Origin: Allomeiothermus silvanus DSM 9946
Lineage (GTDB): Bacteria > Deinococcota > Deinococci > Deinococcales > Thermaceae
DNA: 64,000 bases
Assembly (NCBI RefSeq): GCF_000092125.1
Contig: NC_014214.1
Coordinates: forward strand, 1-64,000
Direction: 5' to 3'
Positions within the stretch are counted from its first letter, which is position 1; each line of letters starts with the position of its first letter. Positions 31,438 to 51,410 of this stretch are shown piece by piece. A program made the position numbers and the translations under genes. Under the pieces are notes generated by a model, which worked only from the letters and a program-made list of their open reading frames with translations, was not told where the DNA came from and did not search any database.

Positions 31438-32604
31438 CTAAAGGGCGGGGATTCTTTCTCGCTTATCGCGAGCTACACAGGTGCGCTGATGCGGATGCCA
31501 CCGCACACCCGTGGGGGACGCCATCACCCCAACTACTGGGCCCAAGCCCAGATACTTGCGCCGGATATTGACCGCCCCGACGCCATCTCGGTGAAAACGG
31601 AACCCGCAGACCAAACAGGTATACTCACGCCCTCGGGGTTTGTGCCGACTCCCGCATCGTGGGCATTCCTGGGAGGTGTATGACTCATCCTGGAGAACCA
31701 CCCGCATCCCAAGCTGTTCGGCTTTGTAGGTGATCAACCAGCGAACCCTCCCTGTGACCATCTGGTGAATCCGCTGGTTGGCCGCAGGCCCGTAATCCAC
31801 CCGCTTCCGGAGATCCCGCACATCGCCAATCACCACTGTCTGCACGCCTCTCTCGTGGAGCGTGGAGACCAATGCGGTGGTCTGCTTGTGCAGGATGTCC
31901 CAGATCTGATTCTCAAGTTTTCGTAACTGTTTTTGCTTGCTTCGCCTAAGCTTGCGCCAGCGGCGGGACCCTTTCCGCATCCGCGATTGTTTCGCGGCAA
32001 GGTGGGCTTTGAGTTTGTTCTGATGCTGCCGTTTGGCCCGAAGTTCCCGCCCGTTGTAAATCGTCGTCCGCTCGCCGTCGTAAACCACGGCCAGATGGAC
32101 CTCGCCCAAGTCCGCGCCAGCTACACCTCCTTCCGCTACGGGTTCTGCCGCGGGCCGGGAGTACACAGCCCGCAATTCATAATCCGTGCCCGTCCAACCC
32201 AGTTCGACCAAAACAGGGGCTTCCCAGGGCCATGGCACGACCAGCGGAGTATTCCCGCGTCCGTTGGAGAGAATGAGCGTTCCTTCCCGGACCCGGATCG
32301 CGGACGATTTCCACTGGACCCGAAAGTAACGCCGCCGACGGTACGGCGGTTTGGCCTGCGGATCTGTTTTCCGGCGCTTGCGCCAGGATTTGAGGGCGGC
32401 GTAGAAACTTTGCACCACCGCGTCCGCGCTGTGGGCGTGAAGCTGGTTCGACGTGTGCCATCGCATCATCGACGACGGCTTTAACCAGATGCCTCGTTTG
32501 CGAACGGTACGCCAAAAATCTACGACCACAGCGGAATACAGTTCGCCTGCCGCCCTCGCCAAAGCATCGAGTTGCGGTGTGTTGGGCAAGCGCAGCCGCC
32601 GCAC
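31438..32604 (-). CDS. tnpB: TnpB with Asp in place of the catalytic Glu
   Basis: Protein of 388 residues from GTG 32604, which lies immediately after the tnpA stop. RuvC-I Asp in GVAGADLGEVHLAVV, zinc ribbon CPRCGS ... CLVCGF, and final Asp in FHRDGVGAVNI are present. The second acidic position reads VVIGDVRDL, where TnpB normally has Glu (as in LEDL of the other two copies). This may reduce activity or shift the active acid to a neighbour. The stop lies in the right-end hairpin, consistent with a guide RNA produced there. Confidence 0.88.
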   Translation of the reverse strand: MRRLRLPNTPQLDALARAAGELYSAVVVDFWRTVRKRGIWLKPSSMMRWHTSNQLHAHSADAVVQSFYAALKSWRKRRKTDPQAKPPYRRRRYFRVQWKSSAIRVREGTLILSNGRGNTPLVVPWPWEAPVLVELGWTGTDYELRAVYSRPAAEPVAEGGVAGADLGEVHLAVVYDGERTTIYNGRELRAKRQHQNKLKAHLAAKQSRMRKGSRRWRKLRRSKQKQLRKLENQIWDILHKQTTALVSTLHERGVQTVVIGDVRDLRKRVDYGPAANQRIHQMVTGRVRWLITYKAEQLGMRVVLQDESYTSQECPRCGSRHKPRGREYTCLVCGFRFHRDGVGAVNIRRKYLGLGPVVGVMASPTGVRWHPHQRTCVARDKRERIPAL

Positions 32605-32605
32605 C

Positions 32606-32998
32606 TCATACCGATTTCTGATTTTCGATGTACTGTTTGATGACGGCAAGCGGCGCACCCCCAACAGTGGAGACAAAGTAGGAGTTGGTCCACAACGACG
32701 GCAACCGGCTCCTGAGCCACGGAAATTCTTGGCGCAGGATTCTCGACGACCAACCTTTCATCTGTTTGACCAATCGGTGGATGCCGAACTGCGGATCCAC
32801 TTCCACAAGCAAATGTACGTGATCCGGCATGACCTCCATTTCGATGATTTCGGCACGGCGTTCATCCGCTATGGCTAGGAGAATTTCCTTGAGGCGTTCC
32901 TCTACACCGCCAACCAGAACCTTTCGGCGATACTTTGGGCACCAGACAACATGATATTTGCATGAATACACAACGTTTCGATTGGATTTGTATTCCAT
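32606..32998 (-). CDS. tnpA: IS200-type Y1 transposase TnpA
   Basis: Protein of about 130 residues. The HUH pair is in VMPDHVHLLVEV and the catalytic tyrosine in VIKQYIENQ; opening NVVYSCKYHVVWCPKYRR is typical. It cuts and joins single-stranded DNA at the hairpin ends. A TATAAT box ends about six bases before ATG 32998, so the mRNA is probably leaderless. An in-frame ATG six codons upstream is possible. Confidence 0.92.
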   Translation of the reverse strand: MEYKSNRNVVYSCKYHVVWCPKYRRKVLVGGVEERLKEILLAIADERRAEIIEMEVMPDHVHLLVEVDPQFGIHRLVKQMKGWSSRILRQEFPWLRSRLPSLWTNSYFVSTVGGAPLAVIKQYIENQKSV

Positions 32999-33098
32999 GA
33001 TAGTATTATACATCATGAAGGTATCTAACTGAAAACAGAGAATTTGGCCGCCTTATCCCTAGGGCTGAAGCCCGGGGCTTGCGGCGGCCGATTTTTGG

Positions 33099-33845
33099 TC
33101 AATTTTTGATCCGTTGATCCTCCCCCCGCACTTCCACCACGTAGCCCTGGGCCAGGCGGCTGAGGAGGGCCTCGGCGGCCTCGTCGTTGCTGCCGGAGAC
33201 CCGGCAGGCCGCCGTGCCGGGCTCGTAGTTGCTGGTCACGATGAGCGTCTTGCAGTGGGCGTTGGCGTGTTCGATCAGCGCGTAGAGGCTCTGGTAGGCA
33301 AAGTCCGAGGGTTTGATCTTGCCGAAGTCGTCCAGCACCAGCACCTCAGCCCATGTGTAGTCGGGCGGCTCGCCCCCGCCGCGGAAACTCCGGTATATCT
33401 CCTCCATGTAGGCCGCCTCCCCCACGAACAGCGCCCGGTAGCCCTGCCGGGCCAGGCGGTAGGCCGCCCCCACCGCGAGGTGGGTCTTCCCCCGTCCAGG
33501 GCGACCGTGCAGGTAGAGAAAATCCCCCATTCGCAGTTCGCGGCAGGCGTTCAGGGCTTCCTGGTTGGCCGGAGTGGGGAGGTACCCCTCGAGGCGGCAG
33601 GAGCGGTAGCGCGGAGGCAGCGCGGCCACGAAGCGCTCGCTCTCCACCCGCCCCCTCCAGAGGTCCTTCAGGCCCCGGTAGTACGCCGCCTCCTGGCTGA
33701 CGAGGCACTCGCAGTCGTGCGAGAGGTCCTCGGCGAAGCGGTAGGAACTCTTCAGCGCCGCCGCTCCGCACACCGGGCAGGGGGGCAGGGAGGGGTCGTG
33801 CTCGACCGGGGATGCCGGGCCCTCCCAGAAAGGGTCACTGCGCAT
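33099..33845 (-). CDS. DnaC/IstB-like helicase loader
   Basis: Protein of 248 residues. A cysteine cluster (CPVCG ... CECL) opens the chain. The AAA+ core shows Walker A LHGRPGRGKTHLAVGAAYRL (near 113), Walker B VLVLDDFGKIKPSDFAY and a sensor-type TLIVTSNYEP. Proteins of this type load the replicative helicase. It overlaps the initiator gene by 11 bp, and a dnaB lies at 50.1 kb, so the element seems to carry initiator, loader and helicase. An IS605 element has inserted shortly after its stop. Confidence 0.85.
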   Translation of the reverse strand: MRSDPFWEGPASPVEHDPSLPPCPVCGAAALKSSYRFAEDLSHDCECLVSQEAAYYRGLKDLWRGRVESERFVAALPPRYRSCRLEGYLPTPANQEALNACRELRMGDFLYLHGRPGRGKTHLAVGAAYRLARQGYRALFVGEAAYMEEIYRSFRGGGEPPDYTWAEVLVLDDFGKIKPSDFAYQSLYALIEHANAHCKTLIVTSNYEPGTAACRVSGSNDEAAEALLSRLAQGYVVEVRGEDQRIKN

Positions 33846-34902
33846 ACACCGTCTCCTTCCCGGGGATGCGCTTCACGATGCGGTACTCCGGGGCCAGCCG
33901 GTCGTAGGCCGAGGCGCTGGAGGCGCTGGAAGCGCGGGAACCCCCCTCCACGCAGGCCCGGTAATACCCCCAGGCCCCCGCCGAGCTGGCCGAGGTGATG
34001 GCCTTTTCCATGCACTGCTGCACCGCGTCCGCCCCCCGCAGCTTCACGTCCTCGGCCAGATGGGGCAGCCAGGCCACCCAGGCTACCGGCGACCGCTGGC
34101 CGGTCTTGTCCAGCAGACGGTAGCTGGCCTTGAGCACCTCGGGGTGGTTGCGGGCCAGGGCGAACCAGGCCGCGCGGGACTTCTCCTCGCGCACCGCCGC
34201 CCGGGCGAAGTTGCGCTGCCAATCGGAAAGCCCCAGCGAGGCCGCCAGCTCGGCCACCGCGTCGGGTTTGCCGGATGCGGATTTGGTCGGAGCTTCGGCT
34301 TTCGCAGCAGACTTCTTCTTAGAGAGAGAGTTGTTAACCAGTAATTCAGTTAACTCTTCTTTTAGTTGTCTGTTGAGGGCACTTAATAGTTCAGTAAGTA
34401 TCTCTTCTTTTAATCTCTTAAAGAAGGACGCCTCCTTTTCCGTTTCCGCCTTTTCCTTTAGCGGCTCTTTTTGCGTGGGAGAAACGTTTTGTGCCGCTTC
34501 CGATGATTCCGGGGGGGCCGCTTCCGGCTCTTCCGTAAGCGGGAAAGGGTCTTGCCGGATTTGTTCTTTGCAGGACGAGCATTCTGCCGCTTCGGGGTGT
34601 GCCGTAAGCGGATTCTCGGCAAGGGGAGCCGGTTCCGGGTTTTCGCCTTGCGCCTGACCCGCTTCCGGCTTTCCCGTAAGCGGGCGGTTCCGCACACGGT
34701 AGCTGTACTCCAGGAACCTACCGCTCTCATCGCGGCGCTCGAAACGCTCCAGGAAACCTAAAAGCAGCAACTCCCGCACGATGCGGTAGGCCCGGTCCCG
34801 GCCAGTGCCGGTGCGCAGCAGATTTTTCAGGGTGAAGGTGGGCTGGGTCTGTGCCCAGCAGAGAACTCCAACAGCTTCCCAGGTCAGCGAGGGGTGATAC
34901 AT
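33835..34902 (-). CDS. replication initiator with internal iterons (lambda O-like layout)
   Basis: Protein of 355 residues. The N-terminal 70 residues look like a winged helix (TLKNLLRTGTGRDRAYRIVR, then LLLLGFLERFERRDESGRF). The middle is a low-complexity, Glu/Pro-rich linker containing PLT--PEA three times. A helical Lys/Glu-rich segment is encoded by AT-rich DNA. The C-terminal 150 residues (WQRNFARAAVREEKSRAAWF, SPVAWVAWLPHLAEDVKL) resemble DnaD/replication-protein tails. The gene for a DnaC-like loader follows with overlap. The DNA for the linker holds three palindromic iterons. This fits an initiator that binds an origin within its own gene. ATG 34902 has GAAGGAG. Assignment by layout, not by close family match. 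Confidence 0.7.
   Translation of the reverse strand: MYHPSLTWEAVGVLCWAQTQPTFTLKNLLRTGTGRDRAYRIVRELLLLGFLERFERRDESGRFLEYSYRVRNRPLTGKPEAGQAQGENPEPAPLAENPLTAHPEAAECSSCKEQIRQDPFPLTEEPEAAPPESSEAAQNVSPTQKEPLKEKAETEKEASFFKRLKEEILTELLSALNRQLKEELTELLVNNSLSKKKSAAKAEAPTKSASGKPDAVAELAASLGLSDWQRNFARAAVREEKSRAAWFALARNHPEVLKASYRLLDKTGQRSPVAWVAWLPHLAEDVKLRGADAVQQCMEKAITSASSAGAWGYYRACVEGGSRASSASSASAYDRLAPEYRIVKRIPGKETVYAQ
34318..34432. other. AT-rich tract inside the initiator gene (possible unwinding element)
   Basis: About 115 bp containing TTGTTAACC, AATTCAGTTAACTC, TTAATAGTTCAG and TTTTAATCTCTTAAAG within otherwise GC-rich coding DNA. Lies on one side of the iterons, as a duplex-unwinding element would. 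Confidence 0.65.
34518..34543. repeat. iteron 1
   Basis: CCGCTTcCGG, six bases, CCGtAAGCGG: near-perfect 10-bp inverted repeat, 26 bp in total. Confidence 0.75.
34587..34612. repeat. iteron 2
   Basis: CCGCTTCGGG, six bases, CCGTAAGCGG-like arm; 69 bp from iteron 1 and the most diverged of the three. Confidence 0.7.
34659..34684. repeat. iteron 3
   Basis: CCGCTTcCGG, six bases, CCGtAAGCGG; 72 bp from iteron 2. Differs from iteron 1 by two bases only. Confidence 0.75.
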
Positions 34903-34940
34903 CAGGTGCGCTCCTTCAGAGAAATAGGGGGACGACCCTC

Positions 34941-35081
34941 TTGACTTTTACCCCTGGCAGGCGCTACCCTGATCTTGGTGATGGGGGTAGCGCCCGAGTA
35001 GGTGAAAGGCAACAGGTGACAGCCGAAAAACCTACGGATTCGCTTGAAAAGGTGCCCGCGCAATCGGGCGCTTTTTCTTTT
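34941..35081 (+). ncRNA. candidate small RNA upstream of the initiator gene
   Basis: Promoter TTGACT (34941-34946), 18-bp spacer, TACCCT (34965-34970). The transcript of about 100 nt would contain a GTAGGT ... ACCTAC stem and end in an intrinsic terminator (GTGCCCG, CGCAAT, CGGGCGC, TTTTTCTTTT at 35052-35081). A GCGCTACCC ... GGGTAGCGC inverted repeat (34961-34993) overlaps the -10 box and may be an operator. It is divergent from the initiator gene; a copy-control RNA is one possibility. Confidence 0.55.
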
Positions 35082-35375
35082 CTCCCTCCTTTCCGCCCTC
35101 AGGCTAAACGCATTCTAGCAGACGGATTGCGCTTTGCGCTTGCCGGCCCCTCGTAGGGGGAGTGGTACTTTCGAGTATACCTCACATAGACAGGATGGCA
35201 AGGGGGCTAGCTCCCATGCTTGCAGAACCGCCACACGGCGGGTTCTCATTTTCAGCACTCTTTGATATATAAATTCGCTATAGTATGGTGTGTGGCAGGT
35301 AGACCACCCCGGCTCGACCCGGATCGGCGTTCGCGCGAGCGCCCAGCGAACCGTTCAGGCACATGAGGAGAGGAT
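35082..35375 (+). promoter_or_regulatory. non-coding region and promoter of the primase-like gene
   Basis: No convincing gene. It has a TATACC at about 35174, a GGGGGCTAGCTCCC hairpin and a terminator-like AGAACCGCC/GGCGGGTTCT with CATTTT (35224-35252), perhaps a second small RNA. Then TATATAA and CTATAGTATGG (about 35265-35285) and an ~80-nt leader with a CGTTCGC ... GCGAACCG stem lead to ATG 35376 (SD GAGGAGAGG). Confidence 0.45.
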
Positions 35376-36860
35376 ATGCACGAGATCAACGACTCCTGGC
35401 TGGAGTTACCCCCCAAAATCGTCCGGGAAAACCGCTGGACGTTATGGAAACTCGGCAAGCAGTTGACTCAGAGAGGGCGACCTGCCATCGAGCTGATGCA
35501 GGGGGCTTTCCCCGAGCGCCCGGCCAGCGTGGACGACCCCTATAGCTGGACCTCGTTCCACCAGGCCTACGCGGCGCTGAAACAGGGCAACGGAAACCTT
35601 CGCGGCCTGGCCTACGTCAACAGCCGCTTCACCCCCATCGTCACCATCACCTTCTACAACGCCCTCGTTGGGGGCAAGGTGGCTCCCTGGGCGATGCGCT
35701 ATTTCGACATCCTCAACTGCTACGCTGAAGAGGGCATCGTCCCCGGTTCGCTGATGCTGCTCTACGAGGGGCGCATGGAAAAGCCGCTCACCTGGGGCAA
35801 CGTGAGCATCCGCTCCAACCCCTTCATCGCCTTCACCGGAAAGCACCTGCCGGGCTCGCCGCCCCGGGTGGGCACCTCGCCCACCCGGCTGGAGGGATTC
35901 ATGGCCGAGTCGCGGCGGGACTTCGAGCGACTGATCAAGCGCCGGGGCAACAACCCCAAGGCCCACATGATGGGCAAGAACCTCGAGCGCCTGCTGGGCA
36001 GCCTGAAGGGGGTCCGCAAGCTGGGGCCGGGCCACTGGGTGGCCCTTTCCCCGGTAGGCGGGGCCACCGAGCCCAACCTGACCATCCGCCTGGACGGCGA
36101 GCGGATTTTGCTCTTCGACCACAGCGGAACCCCCACCCAGGCGGTGATCGAGGCGCTGGGGCTGGGATACGCGGATCTCTACATCGACGAGATGCCCCCC
36201 GAGCTACACCTGGACACCAGCGAGACCCTGGTGCGCCCGCTGGAGGGGGAGCTATTGTCTCGAGTACAGCACAGCCAGCAAAAGTTGCGGGAACTGGGGC
36301 GGCTCCCCCAGGCTTTTGAAAACCGGGGATTCAGCTATCAGGACGCCCTGGAGGCGGGCTTGGGGGCGGCGAGCCCCGAGGAGGGGGTGGTGGTCTACAG
36401 CGACCTCGAGGGGCGGCTGTTGAGCGCCCAGCTGTTCCGCCCCGGCGGGCAGGTCTACAGCCTGACCCCCGGCTTCCCGGCCACGACCTGGCTGGGTCCG
36501 GGGCTGTCCCAGGCCCAGGGGGGGGTGCTGGTGGTGGAGGGAGCGCTGGACGCGGTGCTGCTCTGGTCGCTGGTACGCCAGGACGGCCTGGGGGTGATCG
36601 GACTGTCCGACGCCCGCTGCAACATCCCCACCCACCTTCCCAAGCGGTTGCCCCTGCAACCGGTCTATCTGCACGCCAGGACTCCCGAGGGCCGGGAAAG
36701 CAACCTCGAGCGCTGGGGTGCGCCGTTTCGCGCCGAGGGGTTCCCGGTGATCCCCCTGGAGGGGTTGATCGGGGAGGGAACCGACCTGACCGCTTTCGCC
36801 CAGGCCCACGGCGGCATGGCGCTGCTGGAGCGGCTGGTAGGAATGGGGGTCGGCGCGTGA
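35376..36860 (+). CDS. primase-like protein: degenerate AEP domain plus Toprim
   Basis: Protein of 494 residues. The N-terminal 160 residues follow the archaeo-eukaryotic primase pattern (NRWTLWKLGKQLTQRGRPAI, WTSFHQAYAALKQGNGNLRG, then SIRSNPFIAFTGKHLPGSP), but where active enzymes have an Asp-x-Asp pair the sequence reads YVNSRFTPIVTITFYN, so polymerase activity looks lost. The C-terminal half has a Toprim-like fold (GGVLVVEGALDAVLLWSL, then GLSDARC). Plasmid primases of this build prime replication. It starts the long plus-strand run into the pilus genes and overlaps the next gene by four bases. The assignment rests on pattern, not close similarity. Confidence 0.6.
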   Translation: MHEINDSWLELPPKIVRENRWTLWKLGKQLTQRGRPAIELMQGAFPERPASVDDPYSWTSFHQAYAALKQGNGNLRGLAYVNSRFTPIVTITFYNALVGGKVAPWAMRYFDILNCYAEEGIVPGSLMLLYEGRMEKPLTWGNVSIRSNPFIAFTGKHLPGSPPRVGTSPTRLEGFMAESRRDFERLIKRRGNNPKAHMMGKNLERLLGSLKGVRKLGPGHWVALSPVGGATEPNLTIRLDGERILLFDHSGTPTQAVIEALGLGYADLYIDEMPPELHLDTSETLVRPLEGELLSRVQHSQQKLRELGRLPQAFENRGFSYQDALEAGLGAASPEEGVVVYSDLEGRLLSAQLFRPGGQVYSLTPGFPATTWLGPGLSQAQGGVLVVEGALDAVLLWSLVRQDGLGVIGLSDARCNIPTHLPKRLPLQPVYLHARTPEGRESNLERWGAPFRAEGFPVIPLEGLIGEGTDLTAFAQAHGGMALLERLVGMGVGA

Positions 36861-37559: not shown

Positions 37560-38126
37560 ATGAAGAAGCGTCCTGATCAGTGGATTGTCCTGGTGGTGGG
37601 GGCGCTGGCCATGGCGCTTGTCTGGCTGTGGCCGAGCCCCATCCCGCCAGAGGGAACCGCGGTGGAGCGCCACCCGCTGGCGCTGGGGCCTTCGGATAAG
37701 CCCGCTCTGGTCCTCTTCAGCTGGTGGGGGTGTCCCCACTGCCAGCGGATGTGGGCGGAGTACGGTCCCCGGTTGGTGGAGCGGGCCCAACGCGGGGAGA
37801 TCCGGCTGGTGTTTCGCCCCATCGCCCGCAACCGCAGCGAGGCTTTGGTCAGCGCCTTTTTGTACTGCCAGCCTCCCCGAGATGCCTTTTTGAGCATAGG
37901 AGACTACTTTGCCATGAGCGCTTTACCCGAAGCCACCCTGCGCGAGCAGGAGAGCACCCGACCCTTGTTGCGCTGCGCGGACAGCGCGGCGACCCGCGCC
38001 CGCCTGAGCGACGACAATGAGGCCGTAACCCGTTGGCGTATCGAGTACACCCCTACCCTGTTTGCCGAGGGAAGGCGGGTAAAGGTTGAGGCAATGGAGG
38101 CTGTACTGGCCTCGTGGGGGCAGTGA
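37560..38126 (+). CDS. membrane-anchored DsbA/DsbG-like thiol oxidoreductase
   Basis: Protein of 188 residues. Residues 8-27 form a signal anchor (WIVLVVGALAMALVWLW). The thioredoxin-type site FSWWGCPHCQRMW (CPHC, as in DsbA) follows, and a cis-Pro region EYTPTLFAEGR lies near the end. It would form or isomerise disulfides outside the membrane, probably in the pilus proteins encoded next (several contain cysteine pairs). ATG 37560 has GGAGAAGG upstream, and the stop overlaps the pilB start (TGATG). Confidence 0.85.
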   Translation: MKKRPDQWIVLVVGALAMALVWLWPSPIPPEGTAVERHPLALGPSDKPALVLFSWWGCPHCQRMWAEYGPRLVERAQRGEIRLVFRPIARNRSEALVSAFLYCQPPRDAFLSIGDYFAMSALPEATLREQESTRPLLRCADSAATRARLSDDNEAVTRWRIEYTPTLFAEGRRVKVEAMEAVLASWGQ

Positions 38127-40624
38127 TGCAGCTACCCGACGAAAATCGCTTTTTCGATGTGCTGGTCAAGGAGTTGCGGGTCCTCCCGCCCTTGCGGGCC
38201 ACCGCCCAACGCAAGCACATCAAGGAGAGCGGCAAGCCGCTCATCGCGGGCTTGCTGGGGGCGCGGGTGCCTCCTTCCGCGATTGAAGAGGCGCTGTCGT
38301 TGCTGGGGTTTCCTCCCCTGGTGCTGCGCTCGGTGGACCGGGAGGTGCTCTCCCGCCACAGCCTGGAGGAGTGGGAACGGCGTCAGGCCATTCCCATCAC
38401 CCATGAGGGAGGGTTATGGGTGGCCACCAGCGAGCCCTTCGACCCCGACACCCAGGCCCTGGCTGCGGCCCTGGGAGCCGCAGGGGTGGGTTATGCCGCC
38501 CCGGAGGGGCTGATGGAGGTGCTGCGCGCGGAAGGAGCGCAGAAGCAGCCCCCCGCCCCACCGGTGGCGGTTGCGGCTGCTTCCCCTGCGACCCCGGCCA
38601 CCCCGAGCCGGGTGAGCCGGGTACTGAAGGCGGCGGGGCTTTCCCTGGCCGTACCGGAGGCGGCGGCTCACGACGTGGAGCAGTTTTTGGTCCAGCAGGG
38701 CCAGATCACCGAGCGGGTGCTCTACGCCGAGCTGGCCCGCGCCGCCGGATGCCCGCTGTGGACGGGTCTGGACGGCCTGATTCTGGAGCGTATGGAGCAC
38801 GAAGCCCTGCACCGCCTCAAGCTGCTGCCGGTGCGGCGGGGGGGAGAGGGCTGGTACGTGAGCCCCCGGGCCTTTGTGGAGGAGGAGATCCGCGAGGCCG
38901 GGCTGGAACCCCGCCCGGTGGCCCTGATCTACCCCGAGATCTGGCAGATGGCCTACCGCTCGGCCCAGCGGGGCGCTCCCCCTACGGGCAAACCCAAGAG
39001 CGCCCTGGAAGCCCTGTACCGCCAGGGACGCATCGAGCGGGCCTTTTTCGAGCAGCACCAGAACGATCCCAAGCGGGCCGAAGCCCTGCTGCTGGCCCAG
39101 GGCACCGTCAGCGAGGAACAGCTCACCGAGGCCCGGGCGCAGGTGCTGGGAATGCCCTACATCGACCTTATCAACCAGCCGCCGGACCCGGCGGTGCGCA
39201 AGCGCATCTCCGACGCCCACACCCTCTCCATGCGGGCCATCCCGCACCACATCAACGAGGCGGGCGAACTCATCGTGGTGGTCTCCGACCCCGAGGACAT
39301 CCAACGCAACGACGAACTCAAGATGCTGCTGCGCAACATCCCCTTGCGGCTGGCCCTGGCCTCTCCCAGCGCCATCCAGCGGGTCATCACCCGCACCTAT
39401 GGCCAGCAGCGGGACCTGCAAGAGGTCACCGCCATGCTGGGGGGCGAGGAGGGCCCCACCGAGAGCCTGGAAGTCGAAGGGGGGGCCCTGGACCGGCTGG
39501 TGGGATCGTTCATCCGCGAGGCCATCCTGAGCGACGCCTCCGACATCCACGTGGAGACCCACAAGACCCAGGGGGTGGTGCGGATGCGCCGGGACGGGCT
39601 GCTCTACGAGTACACCACCCTGCCCCTGCGCTCCACCCCGGCGGTTATCCAGAAGATCAAGGTCAAGGCTAACCTGGACATCGCCGAGCGCCGCCGCCCC
39701 CAGGATGGCCGTTTCCGCTTCAAGGAGCAGGGCCTGGAGGCCAACATCCGGGTTTCGACGGTGCCGGGCATGTACGGGGAGAAAGCCGTGCTGCGTCTGC
39801 TCAAAAGCGAGGGGCTAGTTCCCCAGATCACCGATCTGGGCTTCCAGCCCGACACCCTGGAGCTGCTGCGCCGGATCGTGCGCAGGCCGTATGGGCTGTT
39901 CCTGATCACCGGGCCTACCGGCTCCGGTAAAACCCGCACCGGCATCTCCATCCTGGGGGAACTCTCCCGCCCGGAGGTCAACGTGCTCACCGTAGAGGAC
40001 CCGGTCGAGTACGAAATCCCCGGCATCACCCAGGTGCAGGTCAACCCCCAGGCCGGGGTCAAGTTTGTCGACGTTCTGCGGGCGTTTTTGCGCCAGGACC
40101 CGGACATCATCTACGTGGGCGAGATCCGGGACCGGGAGACCGCTCAGGTGGCGGTGCAGGCCGCCTTTACCGGCCACCTGGTCATCGCTACTTTGCACAC
40201 CAACGACGCCCCCAGCAGCGCGACCCGGCTGATGGACCTGGGGGTGGACCCGGCCAACGTCTCGGCGGCCTTGCTGGGGGTGCTGGCCCAGCGTCTGGTA
40301 CGCAAGGTCTGCCCCCACTGTTCCACCCCTGACCTGGAGGAGCGCAGTTCCCGGATGCTGGGCCGCCCGCTCGTCGAGGCGCTTTTGCCCAACCCCCAGG
40401 GCTGCCGCCACTGCTACCACGGGTACGCGGGCCGCACCGGCATCTTCGAGTTGATGGAGGTGACCCGGGAGATGCAGAGCCTGCTGGCCCAGAACCCTCC
40501 CACCGACCGTATCCGCGAGGCCGCCCGGGCCGCCGGGATGCGCACGCTCATGGAGGACGGGATCCTCAAAGTCGAGGGGGGCATCACCACCGCGGAGGAA
40601 GTCTTGGCCAAGACCATGGCCTGA
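38126..40624 (+). CDS. pilB: type IV pilus assembly ATPase PilB (Thermus PilF type)
   Basis: Protein of 832 residues, long because three GSPII-type N-terminal domains precede the ATPase, as in Thermus PilF. Walker A ITGPTGSGKTRTG (near 594), Asp box VLTVEDPVEYEIPGITQVQV, Walker B DIIYVGEIRDRETAQVAVQA, His box LVIATLHTNDAPSSATRL. A four-cysteine zinc site, VCPHCSTPD ... GCRHCYHGY, lies near 730-765. It powers pilus extension from the cytoplasmic side of the inner membrane and may sense c-di-GMP through its N-terminal domains. ATG 38126 overlaps the preceding stop. Confidence 0.93.
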   Translation: MQLPDENRFFDVLVKELRVLPPLRATAQRKHIKESGKPLIAGLLGARVPPSAIEEALSLLGFPPLVLRSVDREVLSRHSLEEWERRQAIPITHEGGLWVATSEPFDPDTQALAAALGAAGVGYAAPEGLMEVLRAEGAQKQPPAPPVAVAAASPATPATPSRVSRVLKAAGLSLAVPEAAAHDVEQFLVQQGQITERVLYAELARAAGCPLWTGLDGLILERMEHEALHRLKLLPVRRGGEGWYVSPRAFVEEEIREAGLEPRPVALIYPEIWQMAYRSAQRGAPPTGKPKSALEALYRQGRIERAFFEQHQNDPKRAEALLLAQGTVSEEQLTEARAQVLGMPYIDLINQPPDPAVRKRISDAHTLSMRAIPHHINEAGELIVVVSDPEDIQRNDELKMLLRNIPLRLALASPSAIQRVITRTYGQQRDLQEVTAMLGGEEGPTESLEVEGGALDRLVGSFIREAILSDASDIHVETHKTQGVVRMRRDGLLYEYTTLPLRSTPAVIQKIKVKANLDIAERRRPQDGRFRFKEQGLEANIRVSTVPGMYGEKAVLRLLKSEGLVPQITDLGFQPDTLELLRRIVRRPYGLFLITGPTGSGKTRTGISILGELSRPEVNVLTVEDPVEYEIPGITQVQVNPQAGVKFVDVLRAFLRQDPDIIYVGEIRDRETAQVAVQAAFTGHLVIATLHTNDAPSSATRLMDLGVDPANVSAALLGVLAQRLVRKVCPHCSTPDLEERSSRMLGRPLVEALLPNPQGCRHCYHGYAGRTGIFELMEVTREMQSLLAQNPPTDRIREAARAAGMRTLMEDGILKVEGGITTAEEVLAKTMA

Positions 40625-40648
40625 CGAAGACACGGAAAGGAGAAACGT

Positions 40649-41782
40649 ATGACCACTCGAGGTACAGCCAGCGTAGCGTTCACGGACCTGCTGTTGCAGG
40701 CCATGGACATGGAAGCCAGCGACGTCATCCTCAAGCCGGGGATGGCCCCGATTGCCCGGGTACACGGGGAGCTGCGCCCGATCCCCTGGACCGAGCGGGA
40801 GTACTTCCAGGGCAACGAGATCGAGGACGCCATCCGGGCCCTGCTCAACCTGGGCGACAGCGAAAGCCCCCTGGGGCAGCGGCATCCGATGGAGAACGAG
40901 CGGGAGATCCGCTGGAAAGAACAGAAAAGCCTGGACTTTAGCTTCTACCTGCGTCGAGCGGGCCGCTTCCGCGTGCACGTGTACATGGACCGGGGCCGCT
41001 GGTGCGCGGTGATCCGCACCATTCCCTCGGAGATCCGCTCCCTGGAGGAGCTGGGCTTGCCGGAGCAGCTCTTCGATCTGGTGCAAAAGCCCCGGGGGTT
41101 GTTTCTGGTGACCGGGCCTACCGGATCGGGCAAGTCCACCACCCTCAACACCCTGGTGGACTTCCTCAACCAGCACTTCGCCAAGCACATCGTCACCATC
41201 GAGGACCCCATCGAGTTCCACCACGTCGATAAGCGGTCGGTGATCTCCCAGCGCGAGGTGGGCGGGGACACCATCAGCTTCAAACAGGCCCTGAAGGACG
41301 CTTTGCGGGAGAACCCCGACGTGATCCTGGTGGGGGAGATGCGCGACCTGGAGACCATCGCGGCGGCCCTGACCGCCGCCGAGACCGGCCACCTGGTCAT
41401 GGGCACGCTGCACACCAAAGGGGCTCCCGACACCATCTCGCGCATCCTGGACGCTTTCCCGCCGGAACAGCAGGCCCAGGTGGCGGTGCAGCTGGCCTCC
41501 AACCTGGTGGGGGTGGTCAGCCAGCAGCTGGTTCCCCGGGCCGATAAGCCGGGGCGGATTGCGGCCTACGAGCTGCTGATCAACAACCCCGCCGTGGCCA
41601 ACAACATCCGCGAACGCAAGGGGGCCAACGAGATGCGCTCCAACCTCTCCACCGCCCGCGAGGTCTTCGTCCAGATGGACGCCAGCCTGGCCAACCTGGT
41701 GAAGCGGGGGATCATCAGCCTGGCGGCAGCCGAGGCACGCGCTTATGAACCCAAGGAAATCCACCGACTCATCAACCTCTAA
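40649..41782 (+). CDS. pilT: type IV pilus retraction ATPase PilT
   Basis: Protein of 377 residues. N-terminal PAS-like part (TDLLLQAMDMEASDVILKPG), Walker A VTGPTGSGKSTTLN (near 156), Asp box VTIEDPIEFHH, Walker B DVILVGEMRDLETIAAAL, His box TGHLVMGTLHTKGAPDTISR and ILDAFPPEQQAQVAVQLASN. The family's AIREHREG-type C-terminal motif is replaced by RERKGANEMRSNL. It would depolymerise the pilus, enabling twitching or DNA uptake. SD AGGAGAAACG before ATG 40649. The 3' end overlaps pilM-N by 38 bp. Confidence 0.92.
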   Translation: MTTRGTASVAFTDLLLQAMDMEASDVILKPGMAPIARVHGELRPIPWTEREYFQGNEIEDAIRALLNLGDSESPLGQRHPMENEREIRWKEQKSLDFSFYLRRAGRFRVHVYMDRGRWCAVIRTIPSEIRSLEELGLPEQLFDLVQKPRGLFLVTGPTGSGKSTTLNTLVDFLNQHFAKHIVTIEDPIEFHHVDKRSVISQREVGGDTISFKQALKDALRENPDVILVGEMRDLETIAAALTAAETGHLVMGTLHTKGAPDTISRILDAFPPEQQAQVAVQLASNLVGVVSQQLVPRADKPGRIAAYELLINNPAVANNIRERKGANEMRSNLSTAREVFVQMDASLANLVKRGIISLAAAEARAYEPKEIHRLINL

Positions 41783-43274
41783 GTCGCGCCTGGGGATCTG
41801 GCTCACCCCCTATCACCTGCGCCTGCTGTGGCGGCAGGACGGGCAGGTGGCCGGGACCGCCTGGAAGCCGCTGAACCCCAACTGGATGCGCGGGGGGGAG
41901 GTGCTGGACCCGAGCCACCTGGGCCAGGCGCTAGGGGAGGTGCTGCGCGAGGTGGGCTACCGGGGGCGGGGGGAGGTGACCTGGTTTCTGCCCCCGGAAC
42001 TGATGTCGCTGCGGGTCAGCGAGGCCCCGGCCCTGGAGGGGGAATACCTGCAAAAGGCCCTGCTCCTGGAAGCGGAGCGGCTGCCCCCGGACCGCTCCGA
42101 ACCCTCTTTCCCCCGCCTCAGCCTGCATCCCGCTCCCAACGGGCGCCGCCAGGCGGTGTTGGGCAAGGTCTTCGCCTCCACCCTCACCACCCTGCAAAAG
42201 CTCACCCAGGATCACGGTTTGCGCCTGTGGGATCTGGAGCAGGCCGGGCAGGCCGTGGCCATCCGCCACGCCAGCCGACAAAACGTCCAGGGTCTGTGGG
42301 CCCTGCTGCACCTGGAACCCGGCAACAGCAGCCTGGTGTTCTTCTGGAACGGGGAGCTGGTGCGCTCGCGCAGCCTGGTGGACCTGCTGGACCCCTGGAT
42401 GCGTCAGACTCGGGGAGAAAGCGCTCTGCTCGAGGTCCTGCTCAGCGGCGGCTCGCTGGAGAGCGAAGAGGTCCTGGGGCGGATCACCCAGGCCATGGAA
42501 GAAACCCTTCAGCGCATCGTCCAGGACGATTTATCCACCGCTTTGACCAAGGCCGCCAACGAGCAGGCCCTCTCCCGGCTGTACGTCTCCGGCCTGGGGG
42601 CGCTGGACCCAGGGCTGCGCCAGCAGCTGGTGGAGAGCTACTACTTCGAGGTGGTCTGCCTCGACGAGGGGCTTCCCGATGGGGCCATGTACGCCCCGAT
42701 GGCCGCGGCGCTGGAGGGGGAGCGGGTCAGCCGCTTCCCCCTGGCCGGGGAGCGCAAGGAGTGGGACCGCAGGTTGCGGCCCATCCTGATGGGGAGCCTG
42801 GGCGTCGCCGCGGCCCTTTCGCTGGCCGGCTTCCTCTACTCGCTCTCGCTGGGCAGCCAGATCGCTGCCGTGAACGCCGAGATCGCCCGCCTTAAACCCG
42901 AGGAGGAGCGGAACAAGGCCCTGACCGCCTCCATCAAGGTCCTGGAGGGCAAGGTCACCGCGCTGGAGGCCTTGCAGCCGGTGGACTGGTCGCGGGAGAT
43001 GGCCCCGCTTCTGGCCGGATTGCCCGCCGATGGGGGGCGGCTGGGAGTGGGGTTGGAACGGTTGGGGGTGCTTTCCGACGCTCAGTTCTACCGCTATTCC
43101 CTGGAAGGGGCGGCGCTCAGCCAGCAGGCTTTGGAGGAGTTTTTGCGCTACTGGGAAAACCGCGAAACCCGCAGTGTGAGCCTCAATCACTGGGACAAAA
43201 AAGACGGGGTGTACGAGTTTACGGCCAGCGTCAGCCAGCGCCGGGGGGTGGGGGATGAGCGCTCTGAGCGTTGA
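41745..43274 (+). CDS. PilM-PilN fusion protein
   Basis: Protein of 509 residues. The first 335 residues have the actin-like PilM pattern (SRLGIWLTPYHLRLLWRQDG, EYLQKALLLEAERLP, LAALLHLEPG-type ALLHLEPGNSSLVFFWNGEL). A single hydrophobic span (LMGSLGVAAALSLAGFLYSL, near 350) is followed by a coiled coil and a small periplasmic domain as in PilN. In most T4P systems PilM and PilN are separate and PilN's short tail binds PilM; here they are one chain. It links PilB/PilT to the PilO-PilP-secretin stack. Confidence 0.8.
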   Translation: MNPRKSTDSSTSKSRLGIWLTPYHLRLLWRQDGQVAGTAWKPLNPNWMRGGEVLDPSHLGQALGEVLREVGYRGRGEVTWFLPPELMSLRVSEAPALEGEYLQKALLLEAERLPPDRSEPSFPRLSLHPAPNGRRQAVLGKVFASTLTTLQKLTQDHGLRLWDLEQAGQAVAIRHASRQNVQGLWALLHLEPGNSSLVFFWNGELVRSRSLVDLLDPWMRQTRGESALLEVLLSGGSLESEEVLGRITQAMEETLQRIVQDDLSTALTKAANEQALSRLYVSGLGALDPGLRQQLVESYYFEVVCLDEGLPDGAMYAPMAAALEGERVSRFPLAGERKEWDRRLRPILMGSLGVAAALSLAGFLYSLSLGSQIAAVNAEIARLKPEEERNKALTASIKVLEGKVTALEALQPVDWSREMAPLLAGLPADGGRLGVGLERLGVLSDAQFYRYSLEGAALSQQALEEFLRYWENRETRSVSLNHWDKKDGVYEFTASVSQRRGVGDERSER

Positions 43275-43833
43275 CCTGAAAAAGCTCCCCAAAAGCTCCC
43301 TCAAGCTGGTGGGGATGGGCCTGTTGCTGCTGGCCTGGATAGGGCTGCTGGCCTGGCAGGTGGGCGGGATTTCCCAGCGCCAGCAGGAACTCGCTGCCGC
43401 CCAGGCGGAGCAGCAGCGCCTGGAGGGGGTGCGGGTGCAGAACCAGTCCCTGGAGGAGCGCCTGAAGGCGCTGAGCCAGCGCTGGGAGGCCCAGCGGGTG
43501 CGCCTGCCTCCCAGCGAGGACTACGCCGGGCTGGTACGCCTGATCGGCGACCAGAGCCGGGCGCTGGGGGTGGAGGTGGGGGCGTTGAACCCGGTGGTGG
43601 TGCAGGGAAAGTCGGCCTTCCCCTACCTCAGCACCCCGCTCGAGCTATCCGGCCCGTTCCCTAAAGTTCTGGCTCTCATGAACGCCCTTCAGCAGCAGGG
43701 GAGGGCGATTATCCTGAAGGAAGTGACGGTAGCGCTTGAGGAGGCAGGTAATGTCCGCGCGAAAATGGTTCTCGAGGCCTACTACGAAAAAGGCGACCTC
43801 CCCCCCGCCCATCCGCCCGCCCGCCAGCCCTGA
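43255..43833 (+). CDS. pilO: PilO-like alignment protein
   Basis: Protein of 192 residues: one span (LVGMGLLLLAWIGLLAWQVG), a coiled coil (RQQELAAAQAEQQRLEGVRV), and a ferredoxin-like domain (LPPSEDYAGLVRLIGDQSRA, TPLELSGPFPKVLALMNAL). PilO pairs with PilN in the periplasm. The start ATG 43255 overlaps the pilM-N end by 20 bp and the 3' end overlaps the next gene by 83 bp. Identity rests on layout and position. Confidence 0.82.
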   Translation: MSALSVDLKKLPKSSLKLVGMGLLLLAWIGLLAWQVGGISQRQQELAAAQAEQQRLEGVRVQNQSLEERLKALSQRWEAQRVRLPPSEDYAGLVRLIGDQSRALGVEVGALNPVVVQGKSAFPYLSTPLELSGPFPKVLALMNALQQQGRAIILKEVTVALEEAGNVRAKMVLEAYYEKGDLPPAHPPARQP

Positions 43834-44554
43834 CCGGCGGCGCCGGCTCTGGGCGGCCCTGGCCGGGGCGGTCCTGGTGGGGGCCGTTCTGGTCGGGTGG
43901 AGCTTTCGTCCGGTAGCCCTTCCGACACCGCCCTCGTCGAGCCCGCTCCCCCTGGGTGAACGCTCGCAGAGCGTCCCGAAGGGGATCGTCCCCCCGGGTG
44001 AACCGGCTGTGTCCGTCCCGACAGGGGATCGTCCCCCGGTTGTACGGGTTGTGCCCGTCCCGACAGGGGATCGTCCCCCGGAGCCGGTGGTGCGGGTAAC
44101 CCCAACCCCGAGCGTCCCGGCCCCGGTCGCCACCCCCCCACAGCAGGACACCGGCACCGACCCCTTCCGGGCCTACAGGCAGATCGTGGGGGCCGTACCC
44201 CCCCGTGCGGTTCCTACTCCTCGCCCGCTGGCGGCCCAGACCCAGACCCTTCCCCCGCCGCCGGTCGCCCCGCTGCCGGCCCTGCCGGCTCCCCCCACGG
44301 TCCCCGCGCTCGCTCCATCGGCTCCTAAACCCCGACCCCTCACCTTGCGGGAGCGGCTCCAGGCCTCCGGCTGGACGGCCCTGGCGGTGGGGGTGGGAGC
44401 GGAGCCGGCTGTCCTGCTGAGCCACCGGGGGGAGCGGGGGCTATACCGGGTCGGGGAGACCCTGGAAGAGCGCATCCGCATCGAACGTATAGAGAGCAAC
44501 CGTGTGATCCTGGCCCGGGATGATGAACGGGCAGCGTTGGAGGTTTTGCCTTGA
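43751..44554 (+). CDS. PilP-like pilus protein with repeat-expanded Pro-rich linker
   Basis: Protein of about 267 residues: basic N-terminus, one span (LWAALAGAVLVGAVLVGWSF), a 150-residue Pro-rich linker with PTGDRPP units, and a small C-terminal domain (LYRVGETLEERIRIERIESN, RVILARDDERAALEVLP) like the PilP/GspC HR domain that docks on the secretin. It is placed between pilO and pilQ where PilP (or Thermus PilW) is expected. The linker is built partly from a DNA repeat also found in pilQ. Confidence 0.72.
   Translation: MSARKWFSRPTTKKATSPPPIRPPASPDRRRRLWAALAGAVLVGAVLVGWSFRPVALPTPPSSSPLPLGERSQSVPKGIVPPGEPAVSVPTGDRPPVVRVVPVPTGDRPPEPVVRVTPTPSVPAPVATPPQQDTGTDPFRAYRQIVGAVPPRAVPTPRPLAAQTQTLPPPPVAPLPALPAPPTVPALAPSAPKPRPLTLRERLQASGWTALAVGVGAEPAVLLSHRGERGLYRVGETLEERIRIERIESNRVILARDDERAALEVLP
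43954..44081 (+). repeat. coding repeat family, pilP part
   Basis: Three units with core (ACA)GGGGATCGTCCC and GGTGAAC flanks, encoding PTGDRPP-like peptides. Same family as at 44923-45045. Confidence 0.85.
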
Positions 44555-46572: not shown

Positions 46573-47219
46573 AATCTCTTCTGCCAATGCCAATCCTGCT
46601 CTCGGCGCTGACGCTGGCCGTATCGGGTTGTAGCGAACTCGACCGGCTCACCACCCCGCCCCTGGAGATGACGGTGGAACTGAAGTCCCCAGTAGCGGCG
46701 GAGACCACCCTGACCCTCTCGGGCAACGGCCTCAACGAGACCTACACCGACAACGGCACCGGGCTGAGCACCAAGGCCTCGGTCTGGCCGGGTTCGTACA
46801 CGGCCACGCTGAGCCGCCTGAGCGTAGGGCCCATCGTCTACCAGGGAGTCCTGGCCTTCTCCAACGCCAACGGCAACCTCAGCCGTACCGAGAGCCTGGT
46901 CTTCCAGGTGCGCTCCATCGACAGCGGCAAGCTGAAGATCGCCGGCAGCTACCAGGCCGTGACCGGCAGCTTGCAGGTCAAGGCCACCGGGCTGCCTTTT
47001 GGCACCCAGCCCAAGCTGAGCTACCAGGGCGCGGACGGGGTGAAGAAGCCCTTCGACCCTACCCAGCCCGCCTCCTTGAGCCCCGGCAACTACCAGATCG
47101 CCTTTGAGGCGGTGACCGTGGGGGGAAGAACCTACACCCCGAATCCCACCACCATGGTGGTCGCGGTGCAGGCGGGGGCTTACGCTCCAGTGGAAGTGAC
47201 CTACACGGAGGCCCCATGA
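46569..47219 (+). CDS. lipoprotein with two PEGA-like beta repeats
   Basis: Protein of 216 residues with a lipobox (LTLAVSGCSEL) and two ~80-residue beta units: one with VWPGSYTATLSRLSVGPIVY, the second with LSPGNYQIAFEAVTVGGRTY and VAVQAGAYAPVEVTYTEAP. The units match the repeats of the 1501-residue pilin at 52 kb. Being a lipoprotein next to the secretin gene, it may act as a pilotin or as an outer-membrane docking partner of the giant pilin; both are inference. ATG 46569 overlaps the pilQ stop (ATGA-type). Confidence 0.78.
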   Translation: MKSLLPMPILLSALTLAVSGCSELDRLTTPPLEMTVELKSPVAAETTLTLSGNGLNETYTDNGTGLSTKASVWPGSYTATLSRLSVGPIVYQGVLAFSNANGNLSRTESLVFQVRSIDSGKLKIAGSYQAVTGSLQVKATGLPFGTQPKLSYQGADGVKKPFDPTQPASLSPGNYQIAFEAVTVGGRTYTPNPTTMVVAVQAGAYAPVEVTYTEAP

Positions 47220-48103
47220 AACGGGCGGCACCGTGGGTCACCTGCTTGGCCCTGGGCCTGGTCCTGGCCCAGCGGGAGAGCGTGGTGCATAGCCCGGACG
47301 GCTCCCTGGCCCCGCTGGCCTTTGGCCGCCAGACCTGCCTGCGGGTCGTGCAGGGGGAGCGAGCGCTTTCCGGGACGACCTGTGTGGACTTCGAGAGCGG
47401 TGCCGGGGTGCTGAACCTGCGGCTGAACGAAGGCTCCCTGGAGGTTCCCTACCGGGTCGAGCCAGCCCTGGGAGAGGTCAGCTACCTCATTCGCCTGGGG
47501 GAAGGCTGGCGGGCGGCCTCCCCCTCCCTCCAGGCCGCGCCCCCTGCCGCCTCCGCGCAGGTGCTGGCCGAGCAAAGCGCGAAACCGGCTGCGCTGGATC
47601 CCCTGACCCGCCCCGCCCCAGCGGGGGCAGATTCCCTCTCGGGATCGGCTGCGCCGATACGCCTGGGGGCAGATTCCCTCTCGGGATCGGCTGCGCCGAT
47701 ACGCCCGCCGATGGCCGATTCCCTGCGGGAGCGGCTCCTCCCACGGGAGAGTCCGAAGGCTGTGCCCCCTTCGGGGCAGCAGAACGCCATGCGCCCAGAG
47801 ACAGACTCCTCGCTGCTGCCGTACTTCTTCCTGCGCCAGATTCAGGGTAGGTATCAGGTGGCCTACAGCCTGCTGGCCCGCGCCCCCGTCGATACCCCGG
47901 CCAGCGGCATCCGGCTGTTGCTGGACGGCAAGCCCCTCTCGGGCCAGCTCACCCGGCGCACTACCGCGAGCGTCCCCGGGCACCTGGAGCGCGGCCAGGC
48001 CGAGTATGGCTGGATCGACCTGGGGCCTCTCGAGGGAAGCCGCCTCGAGTTGAAGTGGCAGCTGGGAGAGGCCAGCCTGGAGCGGGAGTGGAGGTTGCCC
48101 TGA
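47216..48103 (+). CDS. secreted hypothetical protein with repeat-expanded linker
   Basis: Protein of 295 residues: signal peptide (WVTCLALGLVLAQ), an N-terminal beta domain with a Cys pair (QTCLRVV ... TTCVDFE), a Pro/Ala-rich linker containing GADSLSGSAAPIR twice, and a C-terminal beta domain (YFFLRQIQGRYQVAYSLLAR). It overlaps both neighbours, so it belongs to the pilus operon. No family recognised; a periplasmic pilus accessory is likely. Confidence 0.65.
   Translation: MKRAAPWVTCLALGLVLAQRESVVHSPDGSLAPLAFGRQTCLRVVQGERALSGTTCVDFESGAGVLNLRLNEGSLEVPYRVEPALGEVSYLIRLGEGWRAASPSLQAAPPAASAQVLAEQSAKPAALDPLTRPAPAGADSLSGSAAPIRLGADSLSGSAAPIRPPMADSLRERLLPRESPKAVPPSGQQNAMRPETDSSLLPYFFLRQIQGRYQVAYSLLARAPVDTPASGIRLLLDGKPLSGQLTRRTTASVPGHLERGQAEYGWIDLGPLEGSRLELKWQLGEASLEREWRLP
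47623..47705 (+). repeat. tandem 42-bp coding repeat
   Basis: Two almost identical 42-bp units (starting GGGGGCAGATTCCC) in frame in the linker of the secreted protein. Confidence 0.9.
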
Positions 48104-49305: not shown

Positions 49306-49307
49306 CC

Positions 49308-49745: not shown

Positions 49746-50100
49746 CCCGCACCCACTCCACCTCGATGGCCCCGCCGGGCCGGGCCTGCCCCCACTCCAT
49801 CCGGTAGGCCCGCACCACCCGGTTGCAGTCGTCGGGGATCACCCCGGCCCGCACCAGCGCGTCGAGCAGGAGCTTGAGCACGTTGTCCGCGTCCCGCCTT
49901 CGGTTGTCGGGCGGGTACAGCCGGATGCGTAGCTCCACCGGGACCTCGGCCTTGTGGCCCCGCGAGAGCCAGGCCACCTCGTCCCGCCAGGCGGTGACCT
50001 CGCGGCGCAGGTACACCCCTCGGGTGCGCCTGCCGTACTGGTGGTTGCCGCTGGCGGGGGGCCAGGGCAGACAGAGGCAGGCAGGGCGGCGTCTCATCAT
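49738..50100 (-). CDS. RusA-family Holliday junction resolvase
   Basis: Protein of 120 residues with the RusA core: RLYPPDNRRRDADNVLKLLL, DALVRAGVIPDDCNRV, which holds the three conserved Asp residues. N-terminal LPWPPASGNHQYGRR fits the family. It cuts four-way junctions during recombination or replication. It overlaps the dnaB stop by four bases and the pilin gene tail to tail by eight. Confidence 0.88.
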   Translation of the reverse strand: MMRRRPACLCLPWPPASGNHQYGRRTRGVYLRREVTAWRDEVAWLSRGHKAEVPVELRIRLYPPDNRRRDADNVLKLLLDALVRAGVIPDDCNRVVRAYRMEWGQARPGGAIEVEWVRAS

Positions 50101-51410
50101 CGGTCGCGGGCCAGGTCGTTGAAGCGCACGTGAGCGGCGTGGAACTGTAGCTCGGCGGTGCCGGTGGGGCCGTTGCGCTGCTTTCCTACGATGACCTCGG
50201 CGATTCCGGCCTGTTCGGAGTGGGGGTTGTAGTATTCGTCGCGGTAGAGGAACAGCACCAGGTCGCTATCTTGCTCGATGGCTCCGCTTTCCCTCAAATC
50301 GGAGAGCATGGGGCGTTTGTTGGGCCTGGACTCCACCGCCCGCGAGAGCTGGGAGAGGGCGATGATGGGGAGGTTCAGCTCCCGGGCCAGCCCCTTGAGC
50401 CCACGGGAGATCAGGGCGATCTCCTGCTGGCGGTTCTCCCCGCCCAACGAACCCGAGAGCAGCTGGAGATAGTCCACTACGATGAGCCCCAGGCGGTGCT
50501 CGCTATGGAGCCGCCGGGCCCGGGCGCGAAGCTCCATCAGGGTCAGACTGGAGGTGTCGTCGATGACCATCTGGGCTTCCCCTATGCGGCCCGCCGCGTC
50601 CGCCAGCCGGGAGAACTCCCGCTCCGAGAGCTGCCCCTGGCGCAGCCGGCTCATATCGATGCGGGCCTCGGAACACAGCATCCGCGTCACCAACTGCACG
50701 GCGGGCATCTCCAGGGAGAAGATGGCTACGGCCTGGCCGCGACAGGCCACGTTGCGGGCGATGGACAGGGCCAGAGCGGTCTTGCCCATGCCCGGCCTAG
50801 CCGCGATGACGTTGAGCGACCCCCGTCCCAGCCCCCCGATGATCTCGTCCAGAGCCCGAAAACCGGTCTGCACCTCGTCGTCCGAGGCCCCCTCGACCCG
50901 CCGCTGGATTAGGTCGAAGGTCTCGTGCAACAACTCCGACAGCCCTCGGGCCCGCTCCGCCCGGCCCTGGGTGGCCACCTCCAGCAGCTTCCGGCTGGCC
51001 GTGTCCAGGATGTCCTCCACCGCTCCGGCCTCGCTGTAGGCCAGCCGCAGGGCTTCCCCCGCCGCCCCGATCAAGCGCCGCAGGGTCCACTTTTCCGCCA
51101 CGATGCGCCCGTAATACTCCGCGTGAGCAGCGGTGGGGGTGTGTTCCGAGAGGCCCACCAGGTAGCTGAGGCCCCCTACCGCCTCGAGTTCCCCGCTGCG
51201 CCGCAACTCCTCGGAGAGGGTCACCAGATCGACCGGCTCCTGCCGCTCACGCAAGCGGCTGATCCCGCTCCAGATCTTGCGGTGGGAGTCCCGGTAAAAC
51301 GCCTCCGGGGGCAGCTCTCCCAGCCGGTCGAAGGCCGTGCTGTCCAGCAGCACCGCGCCCAGCAGGCTGGCCTCGGCTTCCAGGTTATGGGGAGGGGTCC
51401 GTGCCTCCAT
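50097..51410 (-). CDS. dnaB: replicative DNA helicase DnaB
   Basis: Protein of 437 residues. The N-terminal domain is complete (PPHNLEAEASLLGAVLLDST). RecA core: Walker A AARPGMGKTALALSIA, FSLEMPAVQLVTRMLC, Walker B GLIVVDYLQLLSG, and LSQLSRAVESRPNKRPMLSD. It forms the hexameric replication helicase, presumably loaded by the DnaC-like protein at 33.1 kb. TATACT lies seven bases before ATG 51410, so it is probably leaderless. Nested on the opposite strand within the pilus cluster. Confidence 0.93.
   Translation of the reverse strand: MEARTPPHNLEAEASLLGAVLLDSTAFDRLGELPPEAFYRDSHRKIWSGISRLRERQEPVDLVTLSEELRRSGELEAVGGLSYLVGLSEHTPTAAHAEYYGRIVAEKWTLRRLIGAAGEALRLAYSEAGAVEDILDTASRKLLEVATQGRAERARGLSELLHETFDLIQRRVEGASDDEVQTGFRALDEIIGGLGRGSLNVIAARPGMGKTALALSIARNVACRGQAVAIFSLEMPAVQLVTRMLCSEARIDMSRLRQGQLSEREFSRLADAAGRIGEAQMVIDDTSSLTLMELRARARRLHSEHRLGLIVVDYLQLLSGSLGGENRQQEIALISRGLKGLARELNLPIIALSQLSRAVESRPNKRPMLSDLRESGAIEQDSDLVLFLYRDEYYNPHSEQAGIAEVIVGKQRNGPTGTAELQFHAAHVRFNDLARDR

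Follow-up and report, generated by a model that had tools for sequence, protein, structure and literature searches.

A candidate replication origin within the initiator gene of plasmid pMESIL02 and a phased box pattern shared by related plasmid and phage initiators

Where does pMESIL02, the smaller plasmid of Meiothermus (Allomeiothermus) silvanus DSM 9946 (PMC3035272), start its replication, and which DNA marks the place? The plasmid is a complete contig of 124,421 bp in a genome of three contigs (3,721,669 bp), and the stretch analysed here, referred to as the window, comprises its first 64,000 bases. A sequence-only reading of the window had singled out inverted repeats and an AT-rich tract lying inside the gene of a presumed initiator, with the gene of a helicase loader next to it, and had called the arrangement lambda-like. 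Our analysis favours, with a probability of about 0.8, positions 34318-34683 as the theta-type replication origin of pMESIL02, situated in the linker-coding part of the initiator gene and bound by the winged helix of the initiator itself. The features on which the argument rests are collected in Table 1.

Table 1. Features of the candidate origin, the neighbouring replication genes and the chromosomal relative
Feature	Position	Strand	Details
Replication initiator gene, 355 aa	33835..34902	(-)	ORF; AAGGAG upstream of ATG; AlphaFold model; relatives
Iteron 1, nearest the winged-helix code	34659..34683	(-)	Two inverted CCG-N4-CGG boxes at 15-bp pitch; reads CCGCTTACGGGAAAGCCGGAAGCGG on the coding strand; peptide PLTGKPEA
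Extra single box CCGGTTCCGG, between iterons 1 and 2	34629..34638	(.)	
Iteron 2, one half-box imperfect	34587..34611	(-)	Coding strand CCGCTTACGGCACACCCCGAAGCGG, encodes PLTAHPEA
Iteron 3	34518..34542	(-)	Coding strand CCGCTTACGGAAGAGCCGGAAGCGG, encodes PLTEEPEA
Degenerate fourth iteron-like copy	34440..34464	(-)	77% to reference; adjoins AT-rich tract
AT-rich tract, putative DNA unwinding element	34318..34432	(.)	Codes the initiator's long helix with AT-ending codons
DnaC-like AAA+ helicase loader gene	33099..33845	(-)	phrog_50 E=8e-30; IstB/DnaC-type AAA+; same gene order in relatives
Divergent gene, weak primase/helicase similarity	35376..36860	(+)	phrog_13901 E=4e-6; orthologues in L013, L015
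Replicative DnaB helicase gene of the plasmid, complete	50097..51410	(-)	DnaB_C E=3e-105; TIGR00665 522 bits, cut-off 385
Chromosomal relative	G000 contig C1:543558-543992 (L481:8328-9023)		Also L021, L022, L024, L025; Allomeiothermus/Meiothermus islands

In the AlphaFold model the initiator comprises a winged helix (residues 1-78), a disordered linker (79-148), a long helix (149-197) and a helical C-terminal domain (215-318). The iterons largely encode the linker, while the AT-rich tract encodes the long helix. The protein gave no Pfam match at E<=1; compared with its relatives it lacks the first ~20 residues of the winged helix, and its score falls short of Pfam HTH_36. Its winged helix is probably related to HTH_36 (PF13730) through a chain of homology rather than directly: a relative (L012) that is 30% identical over positions 5-347 matches PF13730 at E=5.6e-4, below the curated cut-off, and another (L067) lies above the cut-off. 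Searches of phages, plasmids and viral contigs with the window protein alone gave no close relatives, and the Calidithermus and Allomeiothermus relatives were used as queries to reach the wider family. The N-terminal domains of these relatives connect to many phage and plasmid initiators of the HTH_36 type, and the relatives match phrog replication-initiation families. An N-terminal alignment of ten sequences was too divergent for scanning; two narrower ones were used instead. A PDB sequence search and fold searches returned generic winged helices only, none at E<=0.001, the weak fold matches being to DnaD/DnaB N-terminal domains and to 4ro3, the N-terminal domain of PLE RepA.

The loader gene overlaps the initiator gene, as the sequence-only reading had proposed; the overlap measures 11 bp, and the loader carries CxxC-type motifs near the N-terminus. 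The order of initiator and DnaC-like loader is kept in Allomeiothermus and Calidithermus relatives, and in Calidithermus the divergent gene on the other side is kept beside the initiator as well. The expectation of a plasmid-borne dnaB near 50 kb also held. Several other features of the surroundings deserve mention. An IS200/IS605-type tnpA and tnpB pair (31438-33016, minus strand) adjoins the loader gene; DNA polymerase beta-clamp (DnaN) copies of mobile-element type lie beside related initiator-loader pairs (L012:13799-14866, L482:6504-7511); dnaB sits in the middle of a type IV pilus or secretion-like cluster with a PilB-type ATPase and prepilin-like genes (38114-56529); and a long protein encoded at 102-2114 (minus strand) has an N-terminal Cas_VVA1548 domain, with a similar N-terminus encoded at plasmid positions 72302-73087.

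Read on the coding strand, iterons 1 and 3 have the form CCGCTTACGG-N5-CCGGAAGCGG, which amounts to two CCG-N4-CGG boxes in opposite orientation at a spacing of 15 bp, and the starts of the three iterons are 69 and 72 bp apart. Three near-palindromes at these distances within the initiator frame had been described as 26 bp long with a six-base centre. Number, place and spacing stand, but each copy is 25 bp long, with two 10-bp arms and a five-base spacer, the middle copy is imperfect (CCGCTTCGGG) and a degenerate fourth copy had been missed. Exact matches to the iteron pattern number two in the window and none in 100 shuffles, and the three palindromes of the initiator gene compare with a maximum of two in 20,000 synonymous-codon shuffles. 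A possible fifth iteron at position 120,004 of the plasmid (17/18) was set aside as chance, since it falls in an unrelated gene and contains one proper box only, and since single boxes occur on the plasmid at the chance rate (160 seen against 170 expected).

The 115-bp AT-rich tract said to follow the iterons in frame also stands out. At 35.7% GC within a gene of 62% GC, it lies below every one of 5,000 codon shuffles (minimum 39.1%), its GC3 is 37% compared with 77% elsewhere in the gene, and it lies at the spot that ranks second in AT content among separate spots of the 124-kb plasmid. The layout is nonetheless atypical, in that the box pairs stand ~70 bp apart rather than in a continuous array and the tract is displaced: AT-rich DNA does follow the last box, though it starts ~90 bp beyond the final full pair and directly adjoins the degenerate copy only.

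Evidence from relatives bears on whether such boxes are maintained as DNA. Among 91 non-redundant initiators collected by protein similarity, 56 carry two or more CCG-N4-CGG boxes in 15-bp phase directly behind the winged helix, whereas protein-preserving codon shuffles yield a mean of 12.4 genes and a maximum of 21. Phased pairs number 265, against a shuffle mean of 22.5 and maximum of 42, and distances between boxes peak only at 15, 30, 45 and 60 bp. In 52 of the 56 genes the AT content of the 60 bp following the last box exceeds what codon constraint would give (P=2e-10). The box-bearing initiators, mostly with the 15-bp pitch, come from Deinococcota, Bacillota (Staphylococcus, Brevibacillus, Thermoactinomyces and a Geobacillus phage), Pseudomonadota (Pseudomonas plasmids and phages of Burkholderia, Vibrio, Pseudoalteromonas and Sinorhizobium), Bacteroidota (a Parabacteroides phage) and Actinomycetota (Microbacterium and Gordonia phages). 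Iterons 1 and 3 of the window are likewise CCR-N4-YGG boxes phased at 15 bp within linker code.

Could the repeats be a property of the protein, a repetitive Pro-rich linker whose DNA sequence has no role? Linkers of this kind are of low complexity and disordered in the models, and such tracts repeat easily. The phased boxes, however, occur in two reading frames (187 vs 22), the same DNA specifying unrelated peptides (PxTxx or xVxGK): frame 0 gives PDTAQ- or PSTGN-like peptides and frame 1 VNGK- or GYGK-like ones, and Brevibacillus has both within one gene. The frame switch and the non-random codon choice relative to protein-preserving shuffles already contradict this explanation, which we regard as scarcely credible. 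A third observation against it is that the rep gene of the Staphylococcus plasmid pPR9, although AT-rich (27% GC), uses CCG at all five linker Pro codons, while its three other Pro codons are not CCG. Conservation at synonymous positions, whose absence the sequence-only reading had named as a refutation, is found, and extends in relatives even to a different reading frame. Because the boxes appear in two frames and the codon choice goes beyond what the shuffles produce, the computations establish that selection on the sites acts at the DNA level. Together, the codon-shuffle excess of the iterons and the AT-rich tract and the family-wide phased boxes give good support to the proposal that the origin resides inside the initiator gene.

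A scan of viral contigs that was blind to protein sequence leads to the same genes. Among the matches listed, 80 loci had three phased boxes, and 55 of these fall in an HTH_36-type initiator ORF (46 in frame 0 and 9 in frame 1); a control scan at 18-bp pitch placed 0 of 79 listed loci in such an initiator. Several of the other 25 loci are GC-rich low-complexity genes, and a few resemble unrecognised initiators. The box sequence itself varies, the 91 initiators dividing into 56 of CCG type, 10 with CCA-N4-TGG at 15-bp pitch, 5 mixed, 1 other and 19 unclassified. In the recognition helix, 51 of 56 CCG-type but only 2 of 10 CCA-type proteins have the GRD-motif arginine (Fisher P=9e-6), an association that may serve as a lead to base recognition but is not proof, as the CCA group resembles one clade. 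Four relatives (L042, L045, L051 and L058) have linker repeats of 15 bp built on units other than CCG-N4-CGG and CCA-N4-TGG, for example TTTTCCAGATCCCAG and TGCTGAAAATCCGCA.

Two natural domain swaps allow box sequence and N-terminal domain to be considered jointly. According to the report on pPR9 (PMC5703833), this plasmid has a pfam13730 N-terminal domain and differs from pSK41 by a ~500-bp stretch spanning the DNA-binding domain and the origin; autonomous replication is established there for the rep region taken as a whole. The pPR9 rep gene contains CCGTTTACTGAAAATCCGGATACGG twice, a sequence that agrees with window iterons 1 and 3 at 19 of 25 bases. The weight of the comparison lies in this sequence match and in the domain swap, the count of two boxes being in itself not significant (reached by 289 of 3,000 shuffles). 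Chimeric initiators of the pPR9 type resemble that of pMESIL02 in their related N-terminal winged helix, in having boxes within linker code and in the AT-rich DNA after the boxes; they differ in a pSK41-like C-terminal domain (Bac_RepA_C, found in homologue L068), and pPR9 differs further in its Bacillota host and in having no adjoining DnaC-like loader.

The second case is a chromosomal relative, present in the host and in other Meiothermus, which has the same C-terminal domain and loader but a different N-terminal domain. Its linker code contains three to four 15-bp palindromes GTGACAnnnTGTCAC at fixed positions and in two reading frames, and in one species (L025) both arms have changed together to GGGACA...TGTCCC. 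Three exact sites per gene are not rare under codon shuffling (51-274 of 2,000), and the strength of the case is in the frame switch and the paired arm change. The island that holds this gene also has mobile-element and restriction-modification genes.

Sites bound by an initiator need not be an origin. Many plasmid Rep proteins bind sites for both replication and control, and the boxes might be operator or incompatibility sites governing the initiator's own expression or copy number, with replication starting elsewhere. The intergenic region 34903-35375, moreover, has an inverted repeat of its own (34960-34994, with 15-bp arms GGCGCTACCCTGATC and GATGGGGGTAGCGCC), a possible operator in the divergent promoter region between the initiator and the primase-like gene, and a low-GC stretch near 35251. 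We nevertheless consider a purely regulatory role unlikely: the boxes lie 220-460 bp inside the gene and not at the promoter, in 56 relatives they are coupled with a neighbouring AT-rich stretch, which suits an unwinding element, and the pPR9/pSK41 exchange moved the N-terminal domain and the ori together (PMC5703833).

A different objection is that the present origin of pMESIL02 is elsewhere, the initiator-loader pair being inactive or a secondary replicon. A skew signal had been suggested for 34.3-34.7 kb and did not appear; the detrended GC skew has its minimum at 14.6 kb and its maximum at 65.2 kb, with nothing at 34.5 kb. The plasmid's lowest-GC spot is at 10,517, in a T-rich intergenic stretch (10500-10720) upstream of a small gene whose product is HTH-like, and the ori/parS role of repeats that precede parAB in Deinococcus radiodurans (PMC7671480) draws attention to the parA/parB genes of pMESIL02 at 122,535-124,354. 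Both places were considered and rejected, the repeats at 10.5 kb being only T-rich runs and no repeats having been found near parAB. Neither has an iteron array or a DnaA-box cluster, whereas the initiator and loader genes are intact and their iterons are maintained against codon constraint. That the start lies at one of these places seems to us quite unlikely. We also count in support of 34318-34683 that the genome yielded no Rep_3 (PF01051) gene, that the scanned part of the plasmid's proteins contained no other known initiator, and that neither a DnaA-box cluster nor an iteron array beside parAB was found.

An origin within the initiator gene is a known arrangement, exemplified by lambda, pSK41 and pPR9. 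The comparison with lambda is apt as to architecture, since lambda O/P and ori-lambda (PMC7466680) also place iterons and an AT-rich tract midway along the initiator gene, with a helicase-loader gene after it. It fails as to ancestry: lambda O (PF04492) is not among the Pfam matches listed for the initiator, only weak PHROG 'O-like' matches occurring in the window and relatives; the loader is no lambda P homologue but a DnaC/IstB-type AAA+ protein; and iteron sequence and spacing differ, the box sequence and 15-bp pitch being those of HTH_36-type phage and plasmid initiators such as that of pPR9. It is with these winged-helix initiators that the pMESIL02 protein, judged by its sequence relationships, appears to belong. 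The pSK41/RepA_N initiators likewise hold their origin boxes inside rep, between winged-helix DNA-binding and C-terminal domains, and their linker protein is described as dispensable and their C-terminal domain as binding DnaG primase (PMC5703833); yet RepA_N (PF06970) matched neither the window nor the relatives, and the boxes differ. HTH_36 Rep proteins with iteron-like repeats are also known from the Paracoccus plasmids pAES7, pMARC3, pMOS2 and pAES1, where the repeats are described as oriVs adjoining the rep genes (PMC3832669), a distinction by description only. In PLE, the Vibrio cholerae phage satellites, a winged-helix RepA of RepA_N type binds semi-palindromic iterons, but these have other boxes and lie in a non-coding region (PMC7145576).

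From the architecture and the known behaviour of lambda O/P and RepA_N we infer how the pMESIL02 origin may work. The winged helix (residues 1-78) would bind the CCG-N4-CGG boxes, probably with two subunits per pair of boxes spaced at 15 bp, and several iterons so occupied would open the adjacent AT-rich tract. DnaB, from either plasmid or host, would then be delivered to the opened strand by the initiator together with the DnaC-like loader from the overlapping gene. On this view the linker peptide would for the most part be a side effect of the DNA signal.

The same features suggest a shared origin code: CCR-N4-YGG boxes at 15-bp pitch in the linkers of winged-helix initiators, followed by ~60 bp of AT-rich DNA, in plasmids and phages of at least five phyla, with a recognition-helix arginine reading the third position of the box and with pMESIL02 as a paired-box variant. 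We lean slightly towards this generalization. No description of the phased-box code was found in the literature searched, subscription journals lying mostly outside its reach, and a literature search for the box sequences returned no replication paper among the matches listed. The pattern offers a handle, from sequence alone, on the replication origins of a large class of phage and plasmid initiators, most of them 'hypothetical'; if the shared code is true, the origins of many unannotated phages and plasmids could be located in this way. It accounts for the odd five-residue repeats encoded in initiator linkers, and a prediction of which residue reads which base follows from the association between arginine and box. 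To our knowledge, few Thermaceae plasmid origins have been mapped, and a candidate is now supplied for the plasmids of this family. An initiator and its cognate origin that move as one DNA segment would help to explain swaps like that of pPR9, plasmid compatibility and spread across phyla.
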